A DNA stretch of 40,388 bases from Candidatus Aminicenantes bacterium JdFR-78 (lineage in GTDB: Bacteria; Acidobacteriota; Aminicenantia; JdFR-78): positions 82,651-123,038 of the forward strand of contig MTON01000030.1 of the NCBI GenBank assembly GCA_002010665.1. Reading direction: 5' to 3'. The position numbers and the translations under genes are program-made. The stretch's first letter is position 1. Every line of letters starts with the position of its first letter. The notes below the pieces were generated by a model. It saw only the letters and a program-made list of their open reading frames with translations. It made no database searches and was not told where the DNA came from. This document shows, in pieces, positions 5,139 through 35,732 of the stretch.

Positions 5139-5211
5139 TGGCGAGGGAGGGAGTCGAACCCCCGACGCAGGGATTTTCAGTCCCTCGCTCTACCGCCTGA
5201 GCTACCTCGCC
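5139..5211 (-). tRNA. tRNA-Phe (GAA)
   Basis: The minus strand folds as a complete cloverleaf of 73 bases. The acceptor stem GGCGAGG/CCTCGCC is perfect, the D-arm is GCTC...GAGC, and the anticodon stem AGGGA/TCCCT carries loop CTGAAAA, giving anticodon GAA. The T-arm GGGGG/CCCTC encloses TTCGACT with one G-T pair. The discriminator base is A and CCA is not encoded (A is followed by CTTTTT). The T-rich stretch after the 3' end could help end the transcript. Confidence 0.96.
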
Positions 5212-8423: not shown

Positions 8424-8439
8424 TGGCACGAATTTTGCA
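8424..8439 (+). promoter_or_regulatory. Sigma-54 promoter of the 108-residue protein gene
   Basis: TGGCACGAATTTTGCA matches the sigma-54 consensus (TGGCACG, four bases, TTGCW) at every conserved position, with GG and GC exactly 12 bases apart. The predicted transcript starts near 8450 and reaches the GAAGGAGGA ribosome-binding site and the ATG at 8466 almost at once. Sigma-54 promoters require an AAA+ activator; one is encoded at 33909-35243. Confidence 0.85.
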
Positions 8440-8465: not shown

Positions 8466-8792
8466 ATGCAAACTTTGCAAAACATAGATTATCAAAAGCA
8501 AATAGAAGAAGCCTTAAAAAAAGCAAAAAATAAGAAAGTTCTGTATTTTTACGATGACCTTGGCTATAAAAGATTATTGGGAGTTTTTAATAAAAAAACA
8601 GCTTCAGAAATAAAAAATTATCTTAGAAAGCGAAAATTACTTAATCGTCTCACGGAATTTGATATAAGGACAACCGAACCAGACAGCTCATTCCTGGAGG
8701 CTATACGTTTGATAAACGAATATTCTGCATCTCATAGAGATAAGAATAACAATCGCACTGACAAAGAAGAGAAAGAAGTCGCATATCTGTAA
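8466..8792 (+). CDS. Unknown 108-residue protein under sigma-54 control
   Basis: A small, charged, soluble-looking protein with a strong GAAGGAGGA site before the ATG. It has no signal peptide, membrane segment or cysteine. Visible parts are an amphipathic lysine-rich helix (5-25), a beta-like KKVLYFYDDLGYKRLLGVF core (about 23-42), a basic helix (SEIKNYLRKRKLLNRL), and a polar C-terminal tail (RDKNNNRTDKEEKE). I do not recognise the family. The promoter shows it belongs to a sigma-54 regulon, and the mix of charges could fit a nucleic-acid- or protein-binding effector. It ends one base before the convergent DRG-type GTPase gene. Confidence 0.75.
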   Translation: MQTLQNIDYQKQIEEALKKAKNKKVLYFYDDLGYKRLLGVFNKKTASEIKNYLRKRKLLNRLTEFDIRTTEPDSSFLEAIRLINEYSASHRDKNNNRTDKEEKEVAYL

Positions 8793-25058: not shown

Positions 25059-25074
25059 AAACTTTTTCAAGTTT
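25059..25074 (-). terminator. Possible weak hairpin terminator after the outer-membrane gene
   Basis: On the minus strand AAACTT, loop GAAA, AAGTTT form a six-pair stem that begins inside the stop codon of the 932-residue protein and is followed by TTGATTTTC. The stem is AT-only and the tract is not pure T, so it is a weak candidate. Confidence 0.3.
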
Positions 25075-27871
25075 AAAAAGACGTTCCAAGTCTTAAGTAG
25101 ATTTGACTTTTACCAAATTTCTTATCCAATCCCTTAGCTATTCCAACAGATAAAGTAATCGGCACAATATAACCCAAATTCAAATCGACTCTCATTTCCA
25201 TCCCAACTCCTGTTTTAAATCCAGTAAAATTAAATTTTTTATTATTCCATGCTTTCCCACTATCCACAAAAAATCCAAGGTGAAATCTCTGAAGAAATAT
25301 AGGGATATCCCAAATTCCTCTTTCAATATTAAAAAGAGGCATTCTATATTCTAAATTAAACAATATTGCTTTTGTCCCAAAGAATGCTCCCACCTCATAT
25401 CCTCTTAAAAGAGAGAAGTAATCTGAATCAAAGGGAGTTACTCTATTTTTATATCCACCTATAAAAATAAGCTCCTTTGTTTCTTTACCATAATAAACTC
25501 CTCCAGCTATTCTAAATGCAAGAACATGATGTCTAAAAGGCAATCCTAAATATTCACGCCATTCACCTATCAATTTTGAAATATCATAATCGCTTCCTAA
25601 TTTTTTTAAATCCCTTTCATAATAGAAATCAATAATTCTTCCATCAGTTCGTGAAATAGAATAGCCGTATTTGCGAGAGCTATTATAATACCATCCAAAT
25701 TTTATTCCACTAAACTTTGATATTTGCTTGCTTCTTTGATTTAAATAAGAAGTTTTTTCCTGAAAATATTCAAAAAATATGGAATGGACTCTTTTAACTT
25801 TGTAAAAGGGATAATAAATTTTTACTGAAAACCTTTTCTCATCCTCTTTTAATTTTCTACGAGATAAATGAAGCTGAAAAGTGGGTCTTAAACCATCATA
25901 AATATAGTTTATAGAATAGGCAAATTTTTCAGAGTAGGGATTGTAATAAAAGTTCAATAAATAATAATGTTTCTGTAAAACATCAAAACCCATGGTCATT
26001 AGTCCTGGGGTAATCCCTGCATTTTCCTTCAAATAAATTGGTAGCCAGAATTTTGGAGTTAATGATAGCAATGGATTATAATCGCGAAATGGATATTTTG
26101 TTTTATTTAATGAAAATTTATACTCTGGATAGTTTAAATTATAAGGATCTGGCTCCATTAACGCCTGCGGAGAAAAATCCATAATAGCTAAATCATATCC
26201 ATGTGAGGAATATATAACGAAAACAAGTTTGCTTCCATCTAGGGAAATATCAGGATAAAAAACACCAGAAATTGAATCTGTTATCTGATATAATTTATTC
26301 TTACTAAGTGAATATGCATATAAATTAAATATTCCAGTTCTATCCGAGCTGAAAATCAAAAATTTTCCATTAGGAGACCAGCGTGGTGAAATAATTCTTG
26401 CTTCTTTTTCTGAATGAGAAAAAATTATCTTTCCATTAAGATCCAAAATTAAAACCCTCCATTTTCCCTTTTTACCTTCAGTTACAACTATTTTACTTCC
26501 GTCAGGAGACCAGGAGGGAGAAGAATAAATTATATAATCTTTATTTTTTGTAATTGATTTAATTTTTTGAGATTCTAAATCAAATATTACTAAATCATTA
26601 ATCCCTTGATAGGTTTTTATTGCAACAATTCTTCTCCCATCCGGAGAGATATCCGGTGCACTTAATCTCAATCCTTCTGTTAATCTTTTTACTTTTTTGC
26701 TTTTTAAGTCAAAGAAAAACAGGTCTCCAAAAAGGTAAAAATTATTATAGTATTCAAGTTGAGAAAAGATTAAGCCTTTTCTATCTTTGGTCCAGCAAAG
26801 ATAATTCCCATAGTATCTATCTGTTAGGGAGTAATCTCTACCATTTTCTAAATCATATATTCTTATCTCAGGAAAAGAATTAGGGTTTAAAACAGAATAC
26901 GCAATTTTCTTTCCATCAGGAGAAAAACGTGGCCCGAAAACGAAATATCCATTTTTAGTTATTTGTTTTATTCTAATTTTTTCTTTATTTTTTGATATTT
27001 TCTTTTTTAGAGGGATGATATCCTTTTCCTTTTTCTTTTTCCATTCTTCCCATAATTTTATTGTCGTTTTCCCGTATATTTTTTTAAAAATCCAATCAGT
27101 AAAGTAAGGAATTATTGTTCTACTCCCTTTTTTATTTAATTCAATCAATTTTTCTTTTCCATATTCTTTTTCTAAATATTCTAGAAATTTATTTCCATAT
27201 AAATAAGAAGAATTAACCCATGGCCACTCAATAAGAGGCCCAGAGGCTTTATCAATTGAAAGGAATTTATTTTCCAGAATAGCTGTACGAAGGAGCATAT
27301 TCCAGTCAGCTGCTCTTCCTCTTCCTCGTGTTGTAAATTTAGTTTCTGAGAGCACAGCAGTTCCTTCAATAAACCATAAAGGATGAAAAAAATTCGGGAA
27401 GCAAAAGGGTAAAGGTGCTCTTCCGAATATATACCGCATTATTCTCGGCAATCCAGAAGTCATATCCAATTGGAGAATATGGGTATATTCATGAATCAAG
27501 ACAGTTCTAATCCAATTATCAAAATTTCCAATTAAACTCTCGCCTTTTGGTAGAACAGCATAAATGACTATGGTCTTTTGCGGGAAAACTGTAGCGTATG
27601 CATTTGCAATATCTCTATTATCTACAAGGATTATATGAGTTTTATCATTTGGCTGATATTGGAAGAAAGAACACAGTTTTTTATGAACTTCTTCACTTAA
27701 GTTTGCTGTCAATTTCGCGATCTCAAATTCTCCCTGATGAAAGTGTACAAAAAAATGTGGGGTTTCTATTGTTTTCCATTTTAGTTTTGGATCATAAATT
27801 GAAGCTGTATACGATGAATTCAAAATGAACATTAGCAATAAAACAAAAGAAATAAATTTACTGAATTTCAT
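25073..27871 (-). CDS. Exported gluzincin metallopeptidase/beta-propeller/outer-membrane barrel protein
   Basis: A 932-residue protein with four parts. Residues 1-23 are a signal peptide. Residues 30-260 form a gluzincin-like peptidase domain with HEYTH (H127, E128, H131) and a candidate third ligand E169 in WFIEGTA. Residues 300-580 hold at least five PD40/TolB blades (FSPDGKKIAYS, ISPDGRRIVAI, WSPDGSKIVV, WSPNGKFLIF, ISLDGSKLVF). Residues 600-932 are a predicted beta-barrel of the Omp85/surface-antigen type, ending in Phe (RLGTSF) like many barrel proteins. It would sit in the outer membrane with the enzyme and propeller in the periplasm or outside. No clear ribosome-binding site was seen. 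Metal-site assignment is from motif alone. Confidence 0.8.
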   Translation of the reverse strand: MKFSKFISFVLLLMFILNSSYTASIYDPKLKWKTIETPHFFVHFHQGEFEIAKLTANLSEEVHKKLCSFFQYQPNDKTHIILVDNRDIANAYATVFPQKTIVIYAVLPKGESLIGNFDNWIRTVLIHEYTHILQLDMTSGLPRIMRYIFGRAPLPFCFPNFFHPLWFIEGTAVLSETKFTTRGRGRAADWNMLLRTAILENKFLSIDKASGPLIEWPWVNSSYLYGNKFLEYLEKEYGKEKLIELNKKGSRTIIPYFTDWIFKKIYGKTTIKLWEEWKKKKEKDIIPLKKKISKNKEKIRIKQITKNGYFVFGPRFSPDGKKIAYSVLNPNSFPEIRIYDLENGRDYSLTDRYYGNYLCWTKDRKGLIFSQLEYYNNFYLFGDLFFFDLKSKKVKRLTEGLRLSAPDISPDGRRIVAIKTYQGINDLVIFDLESQKIKSITKNKDYIIYSSPSWSPDGSKIVVTEGKKGKWRVLILDLNGKIIFSHSEKEARIISPRWSPNGKFLIFSSDRTGIFNLYAYSLSKNKLYQITDSISGVFYPDISLDGSKLVFVIYSSHGYDLAIMDFSPQALMEPDPYNLNYPEYKFSLNKTKYPFRDYNPLLSLTPKFWLPIYLKENAGITPGLMTMGFDVLQKHYYLLNFYYNPYSEKFAYSINYIYDGLRPTFQLHLSRRKLKEDEKRFSVKIYYPFYKVKRVHSIFFEYFQEKTSYLNQRSKQISKFSGIKFGWYYNSSRKYGYSISRTDGRIIDFYYERDLKKLGSDYDISKLIGEWREYLGLPFRHHVLAFRIAGGVYYGKETKELIFIGGYKNRVTPFDSDYFSLLRGYEVGAFFGTKAILFNLEYRMPLFNIERGIWDIPIFLQRFHLGFFVDSGKAWNNKKFNFTGFKTGVGMEMRVDLNLGYIVPITLSVGIAKGLDKKFGKSQIYLRLGTSF

Positions 27872-27899
27872 GAAAATATTTTAACAAATATTTTATAAA

Positions 27900-27935
27900 T
27901 GACATAATTTGTCATTTTAATGACAAAAAATGTCA
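27900..27935. promoter_or_regulatory. Tandem palindromes TGACA-N5-TGTCA (activator/operator sites)
   Basis: Two copies of TGACA, five bases, TGTCA occupy 27900-27914 and 27921-27935, with centres 21 bases apart (two helical turns). A third, TGACG, six bases, TGTCA, is at 27995-28010. The pair lies about 115 and 136 bases upstream of the predicted start of the plus-strand sigma-54 transcript, an ordinary distance for an activator enhancer. They also lie about 30-65 bases before the minus-strand gene at 27871, so they could be its operators instead. Confidence 0.55.
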
Positions 27936-28016
27936 GGAATGGAAAAGAAAAAATCGATTGAAATTTATAATTCCTTAAAAATCAATAACTTAATTGACGA
28001 ATAATTGTCATATTCC

Positions 28017-28032
28017 TGGCATAGAATTTGCA
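28017..28032 (+). promoter_or_regulatory. Sigma-54 promoter pointing antisense into the pqqD-OPT operon
   Basis: TGGCATAGAATTTGCA has GG and GC 12 bases apart and a TTGCA -12 box. The predicted transcript starts near 28043, includes a GGAGGGAGG stretch, and then runs against the minus-strand pqqD-like gene. No convincing protein follows: GTG GCA TTT TAG is a three-codon frame. A regulatory or antisense RNA, or a remnant of a lost gene, are the main options. Confidence 0.6.
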
Positions 28033-28075
28033 TTATAACTTTCTGGAAATAACCTTGGAGGGAGGAAGTGGCATT

Positions 28076-28450
28076 TTAGGGAGCAGAATGCTCCCTGCCC
28101 CCTCTCAATTTGAACTTAATACATTTCCCTCTCTCAAGTTGTTTTAAGAATATAATTAATCTATCATATACTGGTTCGATTTTCTCACCAAATCTCTCTT
28201 TTAATTTTATTCCAATCTCACTCACAGTATTCTCCTCATTACACAGTTCCCAGACATAACTTCCTATTTCATCAAGCCTTATTCTAAAAAAAGGTTTTTT
28301 CATTTTAGGCAGAAAGTATTTTACAATAAACTTATTTTTAAATTTTGGTTTTAAAAGGACAATCAATCCTCCCTCTCCCCTCTCCCACTCTATGTTCCTT
28401 ACTGGTACTAAATCTAAGAAATTAATATTAGTATTCTCCTTTTTCTTCAA
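28076..28450 (-). CDS. PqqD family protein (RiPP recognition-like fold)
   Basis: A 124-residue protein with a PqqD-like core (about 12-112), including RIRLDEIGSYVWELCNEEN and VSEIGIKLKERFGEKIEPVY. PqqD-type domains form a small winged fold that binds a peptide, best known as the leader-recognition part of peptide-modifying systems. The start is probably TTG 28450, six bases after the OPT gene's stop, with AGAGGAA just before it; no better start is seen. Its stop lies in the perfect hairpin. No radical SAM enzyme or precursor peptide gene is nearby. Its placement with an oligopeptide transporter suggests substrate recognition for transport, which is inferred. Confidence 0.78.
   Translation of the reverse strand: MKKKENTNINFLDLVPVRNIEWERGEGGLIVLLKPKFKNKFIVKYFLPKMKKPFFRIRLDEIGSYVWELCNEENTVSEIGIKLKERFGEKIEPVYDRLIIFLKQLERGKCIKFKLRGGREHSAP
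28078..28096. promoter_or_regulatory. Perfect 8-pair hairpin at the pqqD 3' end
   Basis: AGGGAGCA, GAA, TGCTCCCT is a perfect stem of eight pairs with a three-base loop, overlapping the stop codon of the pqqD-like gene. Neither strand continues with a T tract. It could protect the 3' end of the minus-strand transcript or be part of the structure of the sigma-54 antisense transcript, whose GGAGGGAGG could also pair with nearby CCCCTCTC. Confidence 0.4.
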
Positions 28451-28456
28451 TTCCTC

Positions 28457-30451
28457 TTATTTCTCTGACTCAAATTCTCCTGAAGCAACCATTTTCTTGT
28501 ATGGGAAATAAATAAGTATAAATCCTAAAATAAAGAAGATCACAAGAGCCAACCATGGATTATTTAGGGATTCAGGCATGTGAATTTTTGCTCCCTTAAG
28601 AGCTGCTGTAATAATTCCCATTATCGCCTGTCCAGCTATTAATCCAGATGCTAATAAAAGCCCAATATTTTCAACAATTTCCTTTCCTTTCTTTGTAGGC
28701 TTCTTTTTTTCTACACTTTTATCAAGTATGTATTTCAATACACCACCAAAGAAAATGCAAGCAGTTGCTCTAAAAGGAAGATACATTCCAACAGCTATAA
28801 GCATTGGAGAAGGAGAACCTATAAGGATGAGGCCAAAAGCTAGCAGCATTCCTGCAATAACCAATGGCCATGCCATCTCTCCACCAACTATTCCTTGTGC
28901 CATCATTGCCATCAAGTTTGCCTGAGGAGCTGGAAGCGCATCACTTCCTATTCTCATTGTATTGTGTAAAAGCTGTAGCGAAAAAGTTAAGGTCAATGCA
29001 GCTGCAGTTACACCAATGATTCCTCCAATTTGCATTTTCCATGGAGTTGCACCAAGTATGTATCCAACCTTCCAATCCTGAATCATATCACCAGCAACAC
29101 CAGCAACACAGCATATGATTGCTGCAACTCCTATAACTGCTGCAATTCCTGGAGCACCTCTTTGGCCAAGAATAACCATCATTAATGCAGCAATTAATAG
29201 AGTGGTAAGTGTTAAACCTGATATTGGGTTTGATGAAGAGCCTATTATTCCAACAAGATAACCCGCAACAGCTGCAAATAAAAGTCCCATTATTATCATT
29301 ACCAAGGTTGCAACAAGAGAAGAACCTATATTGTGAGTGAAAATGTTATACAGGAAAAACATTGGAATAATCAAGGCAATAATTGCAATTATAATCGAAG
29401 GAAAAGGCAAGTCCCTATCAGTTCTTAAAGTCTCGACCTTCTCTCCTGATCTTGCTTTTTTAACATCTGAAATGGAACGGCCGATTCCTGCAATTAAATT
29501 CTGTCTCATTTTGAATAGCGTATAAAAAGCACCCACTAACATGGCTCCAACAGCTATTGGCTTGATTTGTGCATTATATGCTGAAACAGCAGTGCTGGTC
29601 CAATCTCCCTGAAAGAATCTTGATGCAATATTGCCAAGATCTTTGCTTCCGATAAATAGTAGTATTGGCATTAAAAGAAGCCATCCAAGAACTCCTCCTG
29701 AGAAAGTTAATGCTGCAAGCTTTGGGCCGATTATATAACCAACACCTGTCATGGCGGCATTCGCAGCTGGTGTTTCAAGAAACATTCTACCTTCCACTGC
29801 TGGAGATTTATATACAAGGTTATTATCAGCATCAAGATAAGAGATTCTTGAAAGACCCGGAATTTTAAATACAAAGCGAACAAAAGGTTTAATAATTCTA
29901 ATTCCATTTTCGCTAGTAAAGAATTCAATTAATGCCCCTAATCCCATTGCCCAGAACATGTAAGCTGCTTGAGTTCCTCCTTTTTGACCTGCCTTTACCA
30001 TTTCAGCACAGGCCACACTTTCTGGAAAGGGAAGCTCTACATCTTGGACAAGAGTCCTACGAACAAGAATAATGAAAAATACACCGAGTACACCACCAAC
30101 TAACATTAAAAGGGATGACTTAACAATATCAAATTTATCCCACACAGCAGGTCGAGTTAATAAGAAAGCTGGAATTGTGAAAATCGCACCCGCTGCCAAT
30201 GCTTCTCCAACTGCACCTGTTGTTCTTGCAAGATTTTCTTCAAGAATTGTTCCTTTAAATGGACGAAGAACAGCCATTGCAATAACTGCAGCAGGAAAGG
30301 TTGCTGCAACTGTCATTCCTACAAGCAAACCCAAGTAAGCATTTGCAGCACCAAGAACTATTGCCATTATAATTCCAAGAAAAATAGCCTTAAATGAAAT
30401 CTCCTTCATTGAAGACTCAGGAGGTACATAAGGTTTAAATTTATTATTCAT
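28457..30451 (-). CDS. OPT family oligopeptide transporter
   Basis: A 664-residue inner-membrane transporter of the OPT family with about 14-16 hydrophobic segments, which takes up oligopeptides or metal-siderophore-type ligands with protons. Supporting stretches are FKAIFLGIIMAIVLGAANAY at the N-terminus, LPFPESVACAEMVKAGQ (about 155), and AGDMIQDWKVGYILGATPW (about 450-470), all family hallmarks. Start ATG 30451 follows GGGAGGAGG. A pqqD-like gene follows six bases after the stop and a small coiled-coil protein gene precedes, 28 bases away. Peptide uptake is the best fit with the S9, M20 and M16 genes in the same window. Confidence 0.9.
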   Translation of the reverse strand: MNNKFKPYVPPESSMKEISFKAIFLGIIMAIVLGAANAYLGLLVGMTVAATFPAAVIAMAVLRPFKGTILEENLARTTGAVGEALAAGAIFTIPAFLLTRPAVWDKFDIVKSSLLMLVGGVLGVFFIILVRRTLVQDVELPFPESVACAEMVKAGQKGGTQAAYMFWAMGLGALIEFFTSENGIRIIKPFVRFVFKIPGLSRISYLDADNNLVYKSPAVEGRMFLETPAANAAMTGVGYIIGPKLAALTFSGGVLGWLLLMPILLFIGSKDLGNIASRFFQGDWTSTAVSAYNAQIKPIAVGAMLVGAFYTLFKMRQNLIAGIGRSISDVKKARSGEKVETLRTDRDLPFPSIIIAIIALIIPMFFLYNIFTHNIGSSLVATLVMIIMGLLFAAVAGYLVGIIGSSSNPISGLTLTTLLIAALMMVILGQRGAPGIAAVIGVAAIICCVAGVAGDMIQDWKVGYILGATPWKMQIGGIIGVTAAALTLTFSLQLLHNTMRIGSDALPAPQANLMAMMAQGIVGGEMAWPLVIAGMLLAFGLILIGSPSPMLIAVGMYLPFRATACIFFGGVLKYILDKSVEKKKPTKKGKEIVENIGLLLASGLIAGQAIMGIITAALKGAKIHMPESLNNPWLALVIFFILGFILIYFPYKKMVASGEFESEK

Positions 30452-30850: not shown

Positions 30851-30879
30851 TTGAAATGCTTTTATTTATAAATTATAAT
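30851..30879 (+). promoter_or_regulatory. Promoter of the binding protein-kinase-activator operon
   Basis: TTGAAA (30851-30856), exactly 17 bases, then a perfect TATAAT (30874-30879). The predicted start is near 30886, about 16 bases before the GTG of the solute-binding protein gene. Together with the minus-strand promoter it makes a compact divergent control region. Confidence 0.68.
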
Positions 30880-30901: not shown

Positions 30902-32467
30902 GTGTTAAGAAAATTTATATTAATTCTAATTTCAAGTCTCATCTTTTCGTTTCAACTACTTGGTCAGATAGATAACTTAAAAATAAAATATGGAGGAGTT
31001 TTGAAAATAAAACCATTTGAAAATTATTTTCCTGTTGTTCTGGATCCAACACACCCCCTTTCTCTTCGTTTTATTTCTGAACAGCTTTTTGATAATCTTG
31101 TAACACTTGATAAAAATTTAAATCTCGTACCCTGTTTAGCTGAATATTGGACTATTTCTGATGATGGTAGGATCTATACTTTCTATTTAAGAAAAGGGGT
31201 TAAATTCCACCATGAAAAGGAGCTTACCTCTGAAGATGTTATTTTCTCCTTTAAAAGACTAATTTCTAAAAAATCTATATCTGCCTATCAGAGATTTTTC
31301 ATCTCAAAAATTAAAGGAGGATTAGAATATTTATCAGGGAAAACAGATGAAATCGCTGGTTTAAGAACAAAAGGAAGATACATTGTGGAAATTGAATGGA
31401 TTGTTCCTTTTGTTTCAGCCTTATACATGTTAACTATGCCTGAGTGGAAAATTCTTCCCAAGGATTTACTTATAAAGGAAGGAGAGGCATTTTTTGATAA
31501 ACCTTCTGGAACAGGCCCTTTCAAGTTCGATTATTGGATAAGAGATACGAGATTAAATATAGTAGGGATCAGGTTGAAAAGAAATGATAATTATTTTCTT
31601 GGAAAGCCATATTTAGAAGCAATTGAATTTTGCCCTTTTTACACGCTTGATAATTTTCTAAATAAAGAAATTGATGTCATTCCTGTGCTTTCAGAAAAAG
31701 TACTTAAAGGGAATTATCCTATTATAGGCATTGATCTTCTCAGTTTTACATATCTTGGATTTAGCTGTCAAAGGTTTCCATTCAATGAAAAAAGAATTAG
31801 AAAAGCTTTCTCTCAAGTTCTAAATAAGGAAAAACTTATCAATATTTTTAACCGAATTCATACAATACCAAAAATTACCAATAATTATATCCCACCTCAA
31901 CTGCCCGGTTTTCTTCCTAAAAATAAGGAAAAGCCTACTAACCCAGAAAATGCTATAAACGAATTAAAAAATTTGGAGCTCGATGATCTGACCATTATTA
32001 TATTTATAAGAAGGGATGAAAGAGAATTTATGCGAAAAATTTCTAAAGTCCTAAAAGACCAGTTTAAATTTTTAAATATAAAGTTAAAATTTAAATTCTA
32101 TAATTCGAAAAAAGACCTTTTAGAGTCAAAAGAACCCTATTTAGTTTTTGTTACATACGACATGAGTTTTCCAGATCCCGAAAATATAGTAATTCCTTTA
32201 TTTTCTTCTCAATCAAATTTTAATTTATTCGAATTTAAAAATGAAGAATTTGAAAAATTAATAAAAAGAGCTGAAATGGAGAAAAGTTGGACCAAAAGGA
32301 TACAAATTTATAAAAAAATTGAAAAATTACTTGAAGAAGAGGTGCCAGCAATCCCCTTGTATTATTCACAGGAAAGGGTTGCTTTCCAAAATTATGTGAG
32401 AGATATTGATATTTCACCTCTCGGATTCGGGACATTAAATGTAAGAAAAGTATGGTTGAATAAATGA
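30902..32467 (+). CDS. Periplasmic solute-binding protein, family 5 (peptide-type)
   Basis: An exported binding protein of 521 residues, the normal length for the SBP_bac_5 family (DppA/OppA/NikA). A signal peptide (1-20) lacks a lipobox cysteine, so it is soluble. Family landmarks include LRFISEQLFDNLVTLDKNLN, PCLAEYWTISDDGRIYTFYL, KGVKFHHEKELTSEDVIFSF and GTGPFKFDYWIRD. No permease or ATPase genes are near. Instead its stop overlaps the histidine kinase start by four bases (ATGA), so ligand presentation to the kinase is plausible. Translation seems to start at GTG 30902, with a weak ribosome-binding site. Confidence 0.88.
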   Translation: MLRKFILILISSLIFSFQLLGQIDNLKIKYGGVLKIKPFENYFPVVLDPTHPLSLRFISEQLFDNLVTLDKNLNLVPCLAEYWTISDDGRIYTFYLRKGVKFHHEKELTSEDVIFSFKRLISKKSISAYQRFFISKIKGGLEYLSGKTDEIAGLRTKGRYIVEIEWIVPFVSALYMLTMPEWKILPKDLLIKEGEAFFDKPSGTGPFKFDYWIRDTRLNIVGIRLKRNDNYFLGKPYLEAIEFCPFYTLDNFLNKEIDVIPVLSEKVLKGNYPIIGIDLLSFTYLGFSCQRFPFNEKRIRKAFSQVLNKEKLINIFNRIHTIPKITNNYIPPQLPGFLPKNKEKPTNPENAINELKNLELDDLTIIIFIRRDEREFMRKISKVLKDQFKFLNIKLKFKFYNSKKDLLESKEPYLVFVTYDMSFPDPENIVIPLFSSQSNFNLFEFKNEEFEKLIKRAEMEKSWTKRIQIYKKIEKLLEEEVPAIPLYYSQERVAFQNYVRDIDISPLGFGTLNVRKVWLNK

Positions 32468-33912
32468 AAAAAAAGAGATTTTCAATCAAAGTAAAATTTA
32501 TAATTTATGTAACCTTACTCATAATATCACTGGTAAGCTTAATCTTATTTATTATTGAAAAGAGAGAAGTGAATACAATTTTTGAGGAATCAAAAAATAA
32601 AGGTTTCCTAATAGCAAAAAATATTGCTGATTTAAATTTAAAACCTTTTCTTTTCTGGGATAAAAAGGGAATAAAAGAAAACATTGAAAAACAGATAGAT
32701 AATAAATTACTTTATATAATTTTTTATGATAAGGAAAATAAGCCTTTTGTTGCAACTGACTCAACCAAGAATTTCAAAGGAATTTATAAATCCAGCTATC
32801 TCAAAGGGAATATAACTCCAGAGCATAGATATTTTAATTCTCTCAACTTAAAGAAAAATGGCAAAACCATTCGCGTTTTAGAAGTTGAAATACCAATATT
32901 TGCTGGAGATTCAAAGTCAAAGTGGGGTTCTGTGAAAATAGGACTCTCTCTTGAAGAGATGTATATGGAAATTAGAAGAACAAGATTAATCCTTCTCCTT
33001 TTAGGAGGAGGTGGAATAATTATTGGAATTATAAGTGCAATTATTTTAGCCCAGAGAATTACAAATCCCATAAAAAAATTGGTTGAGGGTACTATAAAAA
33101 TTTCTAAGGGAGATTTTACTTATAAAATAAATATAACATCTGGTGACGAAATAGCAGACCTGGCAGAAAAATTTAATGAAATGACATCAAAGCTTTTAAA
33201 GAGCAAAAAGGAAATAGAAGAAGCAAATAAGAAGTTGATTCAAGCTGAAAAACTCGCCTCAATTGGAAGAATCTCAACTGGAATTGCTCATGAAATAAGG
33301 AATCCTCTCACTTCAGTTAAATTAAATATTCAAAAAGTATTGAATGATGCGAATATAAAGGATGATGAAAGGGAACATCTTGGGATAGCACTGGAGGGAA
33401 TTAACCAGATTGATAAGATAGTAAAGGATATTCTTGATTTTGCTCGTGTAACAAGGCTTAATTTAGACGAATTTTCTCTTCCTAGCATTATTGAAGAATC
33501 AATTAAACTTATATCGAATGAACTTAAGGGTAAGAAAATAACGATAGAGAAAAGCTTCGAATCCAATTTACCAACAATTATCGTTGATGCCGATAAACTG
33601 AGGCAAGTATTTACAAATCTTCTAATGAATTCTATAGAGGCAATAGAAAGGAAAGGAAAAATAAAGATCATAGCTGGTGCAAAAAATAGGAAATTTGTAA
33701 AAATTATAATTTCTGATACAGGATGTGGCATCCCCTCTGAGATTTTGCCCGAGATCTTTGAACCCTTTTTTACAACTAAATCTTCTGGAACTGGGTTAGG
33801 ACTTGCAAATGCTAAAAAGATTATTGAACAACATAAAGGCTCGATACAGGTTTTTAGTGAAAGAGGAAAAGGAACAACTTTTGAAATAATAATTCCAAGG
33901 AGACCCAAATGA
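32464..33912 (+). CDS. Membrane histidine kinase with periplasmic sensor domain
   Basis: A 482-residue sensor kinase. Helix 1 is at about 12-31 and helix 2 at 175-197, with about 145 periplasmic residues between, of unrecognised (possibly PAS-like) fold. A HAMP domain (197-250) leads to the H-box IAHEIRNPLTSVKL (H276), then N-box LLMNSIEAIE, G1 DTGCGIP and G2 GTGLGLA. It overlaps the binding protein gene before it and the activator gene after it by four bases each, so all three are made together. It probably phosphorylates D52 of the neighbouring NtrC-type protein. Whether it responds to the bound solute is inference. Confidence 0.92.
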   Translation: MKKKRFSIKVKFIIYVTLLIISLVSLILFIIEKREVNTIFEESKNKGFLIAKNIADLNLKPFLFWDKKGIKENIEKQIDNKLLYIIFYDKENKPFVATDSTKNFKGIYKSSYLKGNITPEHRYFNSLNLKKNGKTIRVLEVEIPIFAGDSKSKWGSVKIGLSLEEMYMEIRRTRLILLLLGGGGIIIGIISAIILAQRITNPIKKLVEGTIKISKGDFTYKINITSGDEIADLAEKFNEMTSKLLKSKKEIEEANKKLIQAEKLASIGRISTGIAHEIRNPLTSVKLNIQKVLNDANIKDDEREHLGIALEGINQIDKIVKDILDFARVTRLNLDEFSLPSIIEESIKLISNELKGKKITIEKSFESNLPTIIVDADKLRQVFTNLLMNSIEAIERKGKIKIIAGAKNRKFVKIIISDTGCGIPSEILPEIFEPFFTTKSSGTGLGLANAKKIIEQHKGSIQVFSERGKGTTFEIIIPRRPK

Positions 33913-35243
33913 GAAAAATTCTTGTAATTGATGACGACCCTCTTATCAGGAAAACTTTTATATCTCATCTCTCGAAAGAAGGCAACGAGGTAATAGTAGC
34001 AGCTGATGGAACCGAAGGAATAGAATTATTCAAAGAATCCAATCCTGATTTAACTATCCTTGATGTTAGATTACCTGATATTAATGGACTGGAAGTTTTA
34101 ACTGAAATTAAAAACTTAAATAAAAAAGCTTATGTGATTGTTATGACAGCTTATGATGATATGAAAACAACTGTGGAGGCTATTAAATTAGGCGCCTTTG
34201 AATATATTGCAAAACCTATTGATTATATTGAATTATCCCTGGCTATAAAGAAAGTCTTTAAAGTTAAAGAACTTGAAGAAAAACTAAATTATATTGTAGA
34301 GGAACAGGAAAGAGATTATACAATTAACAATATTATCGGAAAATCTCCGAAAATGCGGGAAGTTTTTAAATTAATAGGAATGGTTGCCAATACTCGCACA
34401 AATGTGCTTATTCAGGGTGAAAGCGGAACAGGGAAAGAACTTGTAGCAAGAGCAATACATTATAGTAGTCCTTATAAAAATGAACCCTTCATAACAATAA
34501 ACTGTTCTGCTCTTCCTGACACCCTTTTAGAAAGTGAACTTTTTGGTCATGTGAAAGGAGCTTTTACAGATGCTGTTACAGAAACAAAAGGAAAGTTTGA
34601 AATAGCGGGTAAAGGAACTTTATTCCTTGATGAGATAGGTGATATATCCCCAAATCTTCAATCAAAATTATTAAGGGTAATTGAGACCAGGGATTTCATG
34701 AAAGTAGGAGGAGATAAGATTCTCAAAACAGAGGCAAGAATTATAGCAGCTACTAACAAAAATCTTAAAGAACTTGTCGAGCAGGGTAAATTCCGAGAGG
34801 ATTTATATTATAGATTAAAAGTTGTTGAAATAAATCTGCCTCCATTGAGGGAAAGAAAAGAGGACATCCCAGAATTAGTCGCATATTTGCTTGAAAAAAT
34901 CAATCGTCAACTACACAAAAATGTGAGAATAGTTCCTCCTCATGTAATGGAAAAACTGATTAATTATCCATGGAAAGGAAACGTTAGAGAACTGGAAAAT
35001 GCTTTAACCAGAGCAGTTGTTTTATCTAAAAGCGATGTTTTGCTTGAAGAAAATTTACCTTTAGAGCCTTCTCCTCAGCCTCCTTTTAAGCAAGAATTAT
35101 TACCATTAAAAGAAGTTGAGAAGGATTACATTCAATATGTCCTCAAAAAAGTAGGCGGGAATAAAAGTAAAGCATGTAGAATTTTAAAAATAACACGGCC
35201 TACCCTTGATAGAAAAATCAAGGAATATGATATAAAAGTGTAA
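33909..35243 (+). CDS. NtrC-family sigma-54-dependent response regulator
   Basis: A 444-residue activator with three domains. The receiver has D8-D10, phospho-acceptor D52 in LDVRLPD, T80 and K102. The AAA+ domain has Walker A GESGTGKE (170-177), the sigma-54 contact loop at 217-222, Walker B LFLDEIGD and the arginine finger region FREDLYYRL. The C-terminal Fis-type HTH (about 405-440) has GGNKSKACRILKITRPTL. The contact loop is GAFTDA rather than GAFTGA. It forms ATP-powered rings that open sigma-54 promoters, of which three are in this window, one 96 bases downstream of its stop. It is encoded with its kinase. Confidence 0.94.
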   Translation: MRKILVIDDDPLIRKTFISHLSKEGNEVIVAADGTEGIELFKESNPDLTILDVRLPDINGLEVLTEIKNLNKKAYVIVMTAYDDMKTTVEAIKLGAFEYIAKPIDYIELSLAIKKVFKVKELEEKLNYIVEEQERDYTINNIIGKSPKMREVFKLIGMVANTRTNVLIQGESGTGKELVARAIHYSSPYKNEPFITINCSALPDTLLESELFGHVKGAFTDAVTETKGKFEIAGKGTLFLDEIGDISPNLQSKLLRVIETRDFMKVGGDKILKTEARIIAATNKNLKELVEQGKFREDLYYRLKVVEINLPPLRERKEDIPELVAYLLEKINRQLHKNVRIVPPHVMEKLINYPWKGNVRELENALTRAVVLSKSDVLLEENLPLEPSPQPPFKQELLPLKEVEKDYIQYVLKKVGGNKSKACRILKITRPTLDRKIKEYDIKV

Positions 35244-35274
35244 AATAATTTAAATCCAGTTGTAAATAATTAAA
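35239..35274 (+). promoter_or_regulatory. Direct repeats upstream of the receiver/Fis sigma-54 promoter
   Basis: TGTAAAATAATTTAAA (35239-35254) and TGTAAATAATTAAA (35261-35274) are near-identical and start 22 bases apart, about two helical turns. They lie about 91 to 126 bases before the predicted start of the sigma-54 transcript. They are AT-rich, so chance similarity is possible. The first copy overlaps the activator gene's stop codon. Confidence 0.35.
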
Positions 35275-35338
35275 CACCCTATTAAAATTCAAAAAAGCTT
35301 AACTATTTGAAATTAAATAAAATAACAAATTTAAAATT

Positions 35339-35354
35339 TGGCATGGAATATGCA
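35339..35354 (+). promoter_or_regulatory. Sigma-54 promoter of the receiver/Fis-like pair
   Basis: TGGCATGGAATATGCA has GG and GC at exact -24/-12 spacing; the -12 box is ATGCA instead of TTGCA. The expected start near 35365 decides the start codon of the receiver: ATG 35364 would be outside the message, while ATG 35376 lies behind GAGGAG. Confidence 0.75.
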
Positions 35355-35375
35355 TATAACTAAATGAGGAGAAGT

Positions 35376-35732
35376 ATGGAAAGAAAAATAGTTATAATAG
35401 AGGACGATAGAACAATACAGAAAACTTTATCCTTGATATTAAAGGATAAATATAAAATTGCTGTTTATTCAACAGGAGAGGAAGCCTTAGAGGAAATAGA
35501 CAATGATCCAATAGACTTGATAATAACAGATTATAAATTACCTGGAATCAATGGATTGGAAATAATAGAAAAATTGAGAAAACAAGGTTTTAGAGGAAAA
35601 ACAATTCTTGTTTCCGCTTATCCAGATTTAATTAATGTTAAAGATATTGAAAAATTTGGTGTAGATTATCTGTTTGTTAAGCCCCTTGATTTGAATAAAT
35701 TAATAATGTCAATAAGACACCTTTTATCATGA
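35376..35732 (+). CDS. Single-domain response regulator (receiver only)
   Basis: A 118-residue receiver domain without an output domain. E9, D10 and D11 form the acidic pocket, D52 (TDYKLPG) is the phosphate acceptor, S80 replaces the usual Thr, and K102 (VKPLDL) is present. It is the first gene behind a sigma-54 promoter and 10 bases before a small Fis-like gene. It may be phosphorylated by the kinase encoded just upstream, and may act on the Fis-like protein as a split response regulator or as a phosphate sink. The partner is inferred from position. Confidence 0.88.
   Translation: MERKIVIIEDDRTIQKTLSLILKDKYKIAVYSTGEEALEEIDNDPIDLIITDYKLPGINGLEIIEKLRKQGFRGKTILVSAYPDLINVKDIEKFGVDYLFVKPLDLNKLIMSIRHLLS

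Follow-up and report, generated by a model that had tools for sequence, protein, structure and literature searches.

At sigma-54 promoters, activator sites are located 70-200 bp upstream, often with an IHF site in between. Among the pilA promoters of P. aeruginosa, G. sulfurreducens and M. xanthus that depend on PilR and sigma-54, PilR is encoded beside the pilin gene together with a -24/-12 box, an arrangement also found in the pilus cluster of the Aminicenantes genome described here. In G. sulfurreducens, pilA lies immediately downstream of pilR and has an RpoN promoter (PMC2725144). The hallmarks of PilR sites in P. aeruginosa, as quoted in PMC6058289, are a NifA-like TGT-N11-AGA motif and nearby GTCT elements, whereas the sites in Aminicenantes consist of a tandem inverted repeat, TGACA-N5-TGTCA. 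No PilR consensus that includes TGTC or TGTCA turned up among the open papers searched. Furthermore, the pilA promoters of the known systems have the pilin gene behind them, unlike the copy described here.

Sigma-54 sites in antisense orientation to genes have also been described. ChIP-seq in E. coli located eight such sites classed as 'outside antisense' and 27 as 'inside antisense' (Bonocora et al. 2015, PMC4591121). The present site resembles the former in lying outside genes and in being directed antisense to the next gene, but it differs in being known from sequence alone, through its enhancer and IHF architecture. A further parallel is GlmY, a small RNA whose sigma-54 promoter is activated by QseF (PMC6075780): one reading of the present locus likewise has a non-coding RNA made under the control of an enhancer protein with sites upstream. 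GlmY acts in trans and is conserved, whereas the stretch downstream of the present promoter shows no conservation and its RNA is only predicted. As antisense sigma-54 sites and sigma-54 small RNAs are both known, neither of the two main readings of the locus, a promoter cut off from its gene or a functional small or antisense RNA, would be new in kind.

The stretch of DNA analysed (the window, 40,388 nucleotides) originates from an Aminicenantes genome of 2.53 Mb, for which the closest genomes available for comparison belong to the same class only. The features identified are listed in Table 1. The earlier note had claimed an exact -24/-12 promoter facing genes on the opposite strand and, upstream of it, two TGACA-N5-TGTCA palindromes with centres 21 bp apart, and both were confirmed. 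The box differs from the strict TGGCAC form by one base (T for C), and relative to its first base the two upstream activator sites (UAS) are positioned at -117 and -96. The exact IHF consensus is an addition, having been overlooked in that note; it lies at -37 from the box start, compared to -27 at most other sites of the regulon, approximately one helical turn further away. Among 20,000 dinucleotide shuffles of positions 27872-28075, the two palindromes occurred in none, a single palindrome at a frequency of 5e-5 and the box at 2e-4 (0.02%). The imperfect third palindrome, likewise absent from the earlier note, has a spacer one base longer than that of the enhancer sites and could be a weak extra site.

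Table 1. Features at the promoter and among its neighbouring genes (positions are those of the window)
Feature	Positions	Strand	Remarks
Enhancer palindrome 1 TGACATAATTTGTCA (PilR-type UAS 1)	27900-27914		Exact to TGACA-N5-TGTCA
Enhancer palindrome 2 TGACAAAAAATGTCA (UAS 2)	27921-27935		Exact to TGACA-N5-TGTCA
IHF-like site AATCAATAACTTA	27980-27992	+	Exact to consensus WATCAANNNNTTR; between enhancer and box
Imperfect third palindrome TGACGAATAATTGTCA	27995-28010		From sequence; just upstream of box
-24/-12 sigma-54 promoter TGGCATAGAATTTGC	28017-28031	+	Exact to TGGCAY-N5-TTGC
Predicted transcription start	28043	+	Placed some 12 nt downstream of the -12 GC by sigma-54 promoter geometry
Shine-Dalgarno-like GGAGGGAGG	28057-28065	+	From sequence
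GGAGGGAGG then GTG GCA TTT TAG	28057-28079	+	Start codon at usual distance from box, stop after three codons
Hairpin AGGGAGCA-GAA-TGCTCCCT	28078-28096		Eight perfect pairs
PqqD-like gene, TTG start	28076-28450	-	Pfam PF05402, E 8e-9; convergent to promoter
OPT oligopeptide transporter	28457-30451	-	PF03169, E 4e-78; TIGR00733 over cut-off
Secreted peptidase-like/TolB-propeller/outer-membrane barrel protein	25073-27871	-	Neighbour gene

The genome encodes one RpoN (PF04552, E 4e-60) and approximately 15 enhancer-binding proteins in addition to fragments. The window site thus combines the GG and GC elements at their proper spacing with an RpoN in the genome, distal UAS and an IHF site, and there is very strong support for a sigma-54 promoter that has tandem enhancer sites and is directed into the end of pqqD. 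Judged by these motifs, box, palindromes and IHF consensus make up a full enhancer-dependent promoter.

The same architecture was found to recur across the genome. TGGCAY-N5-TTGC gave 37 matches, compared to none for the reversed control, and TGACA-N5-TGTCA was found at 15 places, compared to one for its control. Most of the 30 boxes inspected were located shortly upstream of a sense gene; the few inside genes were without palindromes and are probably chance matches. Tandem palindromes with centres 21-22 bp apart were identified at seven places (none in the control), all seven upstream of a -24/-12 box situated 69-117 bp downstream of a palindrome. At two more sites, one belonging to a pilin promoter (L013) and the other to a sensor-protein promoter (L046), one half is degenerate. 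The IHF consensus was enriched between UAS and box among nine regulon promoters, with none of 2000 shuffles being as good. Gene products encoded downstream include an HD-GYP protein, a response regulator, a MerR-like gene product followed by a PAS kinase, a PAS/GAF protein, propeller sensor proteins, a secreted protein and a pilin. Counted from the first base of the box, most of the start codons are 30-70 nt downstream. All other sites of the regulon have a sense reading frame behind them, the window site alone having none.

A complete pilB-pilT-pilC-pilS-pilR-pilin cluster was identified on the same contig as the window (L196, G000:C5:10000-18200; PilR at L196:6093-7457), in which a palindrome and a -24/-12 box separate pilR from the pilin gene. 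Among 23 other Aminicenantes genomes, palindrome and box were found together at 24 places, 21 of these directly before a type IV pilin gene, while the reversed pattern gave no match in any of those genomes. Due to this pairing with pilR and pilin on the same contig and with pilin genes elsewhere, PilR is most likely the activator of the window promoter, and there is a high probability that the promoter is of the PilR type. That PilR binds at the palindromes is what we infer from their position and recurrence. A single exact TGACA-N5-TGTCA, with no obvious -24/-12 box, lies upstream of another enhancer-binding-protein gene (L169/L044, G000:C11:56451), and this or another enhancer protein of the genome could be the activator instead. 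Near-identical enhancer-binding-protein fragments were also seen on three contigs (L180 on C26, L184 on C10 and L185 on C38), some of which end at a contig end or carry a stop; either the gene family is repeated or the assembly is broken there.

In the majority of the other matching Aminicenantes there is a single site, located at the pilin gene. The PilR regulon of this genome is apparently expanded and unusually large, with non-pilus genes behind PilR-type promoters at seven loci (L002, L004, L010, L012, L017, L025 and L046). Two-component-propeller sensors and a secreted protein of 231 aa are among these non-pilus targets. Judging from sequence, PilR control in this lineage is apparently not confined to pili but extends to kinases, an HD-GYP protein, a response regulator and a secreted protein. 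Furthermore, the sites provide a concrete and well-supported candidate for a PilR-type operator in the uncultured class Aminicenantes, namely tandem TGACA-N5-TGTCA at 21-22 bp with an IHF site and a -24/-12 box.

Downstream of the window promoter, no sense ORF of at least 60 aa was found near the box (locus L015), only short frames. This agrees with the earlier note, which had reported no convincing protein there, and the GGAGGGAGG stretch and the perfect eight-pair hairpin that it described were likewise found. The hairpin falls within the tail of the pqqD frame, which is not conserved, and has a T-run on neither strand.

The OPT-pqqD pair is kept in relatives, and in those with a readable flank pqqD is usually followed by def (identified by eye from its reading frame). 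In this genome, def is not behind pqqD but on another contig (C20). A search at this def gene for the opposite flank of the presumed break revealed a predicted beta-barrel gene ahead of it and no pqqD remnant; a remnant of the presumed lost gene was also sought and none was found. The last 10 residues of the pqqD product lie beyond the point where most homologues end and are unmatched by relatives, forming the longest such tail among Aminicenantes homologues, although others reach 9. This tail, with the hairpin inside it, fits a rearrangement junction but is not proof of one. An origin of positions 27990-28160 from a repeat or mobile element was rejected, the stretch matching only itself in the genome, and a search of a plasmid collection gave no match.

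The break in gene order and the lack of visible constraint downstream lead us to favour, tentatively and at somewhat below even probability, a working PilR/sigma-54 promoter that was cut off from its gene by a rearrangement behind pqqD. PilR, phosphorylated by PilS, would form oligomers on the two palindromes, IHF would bend the DNA at its site, and sigma-54 polymerase at the box would be remodelled by PilR to give a plus-strand RNA from approximately 28043. This RNA would contain no protein gene, its ribosome-binding site being followed by a GTG codon that runs into a stop three codons on, and would continue antisense to the last codons of pqqD, any effect of the short transcript on pqqD being incidental. 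The rearrangement would have left the promoter as an orphaned yet intact member of the PilR regulon. Since all parts of the promoter are perfect, the loss would be recent, and this state of preservation speaks against a relic of any great age. The promoter could still give rise to a short non-coding transcript that crosses the end of pqqD.

The main alternative, possible but doubtful, is that the promoter makes a functional small or antisense RNA under PilR control, structured, about 60-105 nt long and starting at 28043. It would act by pairing with the OPT-pqqD message at its 3' end or by blocking that message through head-on transcription, tying pilus regulation to peptide uptake. The perfectly kept promoter without a sense gene is in line with it, as are the precedents of GlmY and the antisense sites of E. 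coli. Furthermore, the 108-nt stretch from the predicted start (28041-28148) folds at -37 kcal/mol (z -3.3 against shuffles), making it the most stable 108-nt fold in the window except for a tRNA gene, and its outer stem ends in a terminator-like UUGUUUU. However, an equally stable fold was obtained in 12% of trials when the 5' arm alone was shuffled and in 11% when the homologous pqqD codons alone were synonymously recoded, compared to 1.2% when all overlapping codons, including those of the hairpin, were recoded. The inner hairpin is therefore real, while the outer stem is probably the result of a purine-rich sequence meeting the antisense of purine-rich codons; being within chance in the two arm-specific controls (p about 0.1), it was rejected as evidence for an RNA. 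A standard terminator was not found downstream of the promoter, and an operon is poorly controlled by an RNA that is antisense only to the 3' end of its final gene. The proposal in the earlier note that an antisense or structured RNA controls the transporter operon gained no positive evidence: the promoter is absent from about 40 related OPT-pqqD loci (none from the same family), no homologue of the transcribed stretch, and so none showing the covariation of a conserved structured or antisense RNA, was found among 142 genomes of the class, and Rfam gave no match. A relic, which that note had offered as its other option, is at least as likely as antisense control.

Rather unlikely is a related reading in which the PilR/IHF/sigma-54 module, a switch for pilin across the class, was taken over in this lineage for the synthesis of an antisense RNA where the transporter operon ends. 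If true, surface or pilus signalling would be coupled to peptide uptake.

It is improbable that the product is a small protein or leader peptide, beginning at an ATG at 28088 (19 codons) or a TTG at 28055 (30 codons). Ribosome-site-like sequences (AGGGAG) precede the ATG, but both frames run antisense to pqqD, have chance ends and lack homologues or recognisable features.

There is a similarly small chance that the main target of the palindromes is the neighbouring gene at 25073-27871, with PilR at 27900-27935 covering its sigma-70 promoter as a repressor and the box being secondary. NtrC represses glnAp1 by covering its promoter in a like manner. UAS 1 is 28 bp from the start of this gene, and sigma-70-like hexamers on the minus strand (27915-27887 and 27905-27878) overlap the UAS. 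However, such hexamers occur at chance level (17 found compared to 15 expected), no palindromes were found upstream of about 29 homologues of the gene, and repression would leave the exact box and IHF site unexplained.

A long read-through, in which an antisense RNA of approximately 2.9 kb becomes the leader of the SBP-kinase-NtrC operon at 30902 (plus strand) in an excludon-like manner, is very improbable, for although PilR-type sites of this genome precede signalling genes (kinases, response regulator) and the first plus-strand operon downstream is a two-component system, this operon has a strong sigma-70-like promoter of its own (TTGAAA-17-TATAAT at 30851, 11/12) and nearly 3 kb would have to be transcribed against a converging operon.

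With regard to the favoured reading, the orphaned site would represent an enhancer-dependent promoter left facing a foreign operon, from which a new antisense RNA could arise.

Other features were identified in the window. A single Rfam match exceeded the gathering score, namely the tRNA gene at 5139-5211 (minus strand). A second perfect -24/-12 box, TGGCACGAATTTTGC at 8424-8438, is without TGACA palindromes and is followed by a ribosome site and a plus-strand gene (8466-8792) for a 108-aa protein without any Pfam match. The plus-strand operon at 30902-35732, which adjoins the OPT operon, encodes an SBP_bac_5 peptide-binding protein, a HAMP histidine kinase, an NtrC-type response regulator and a CheY-like receiver.
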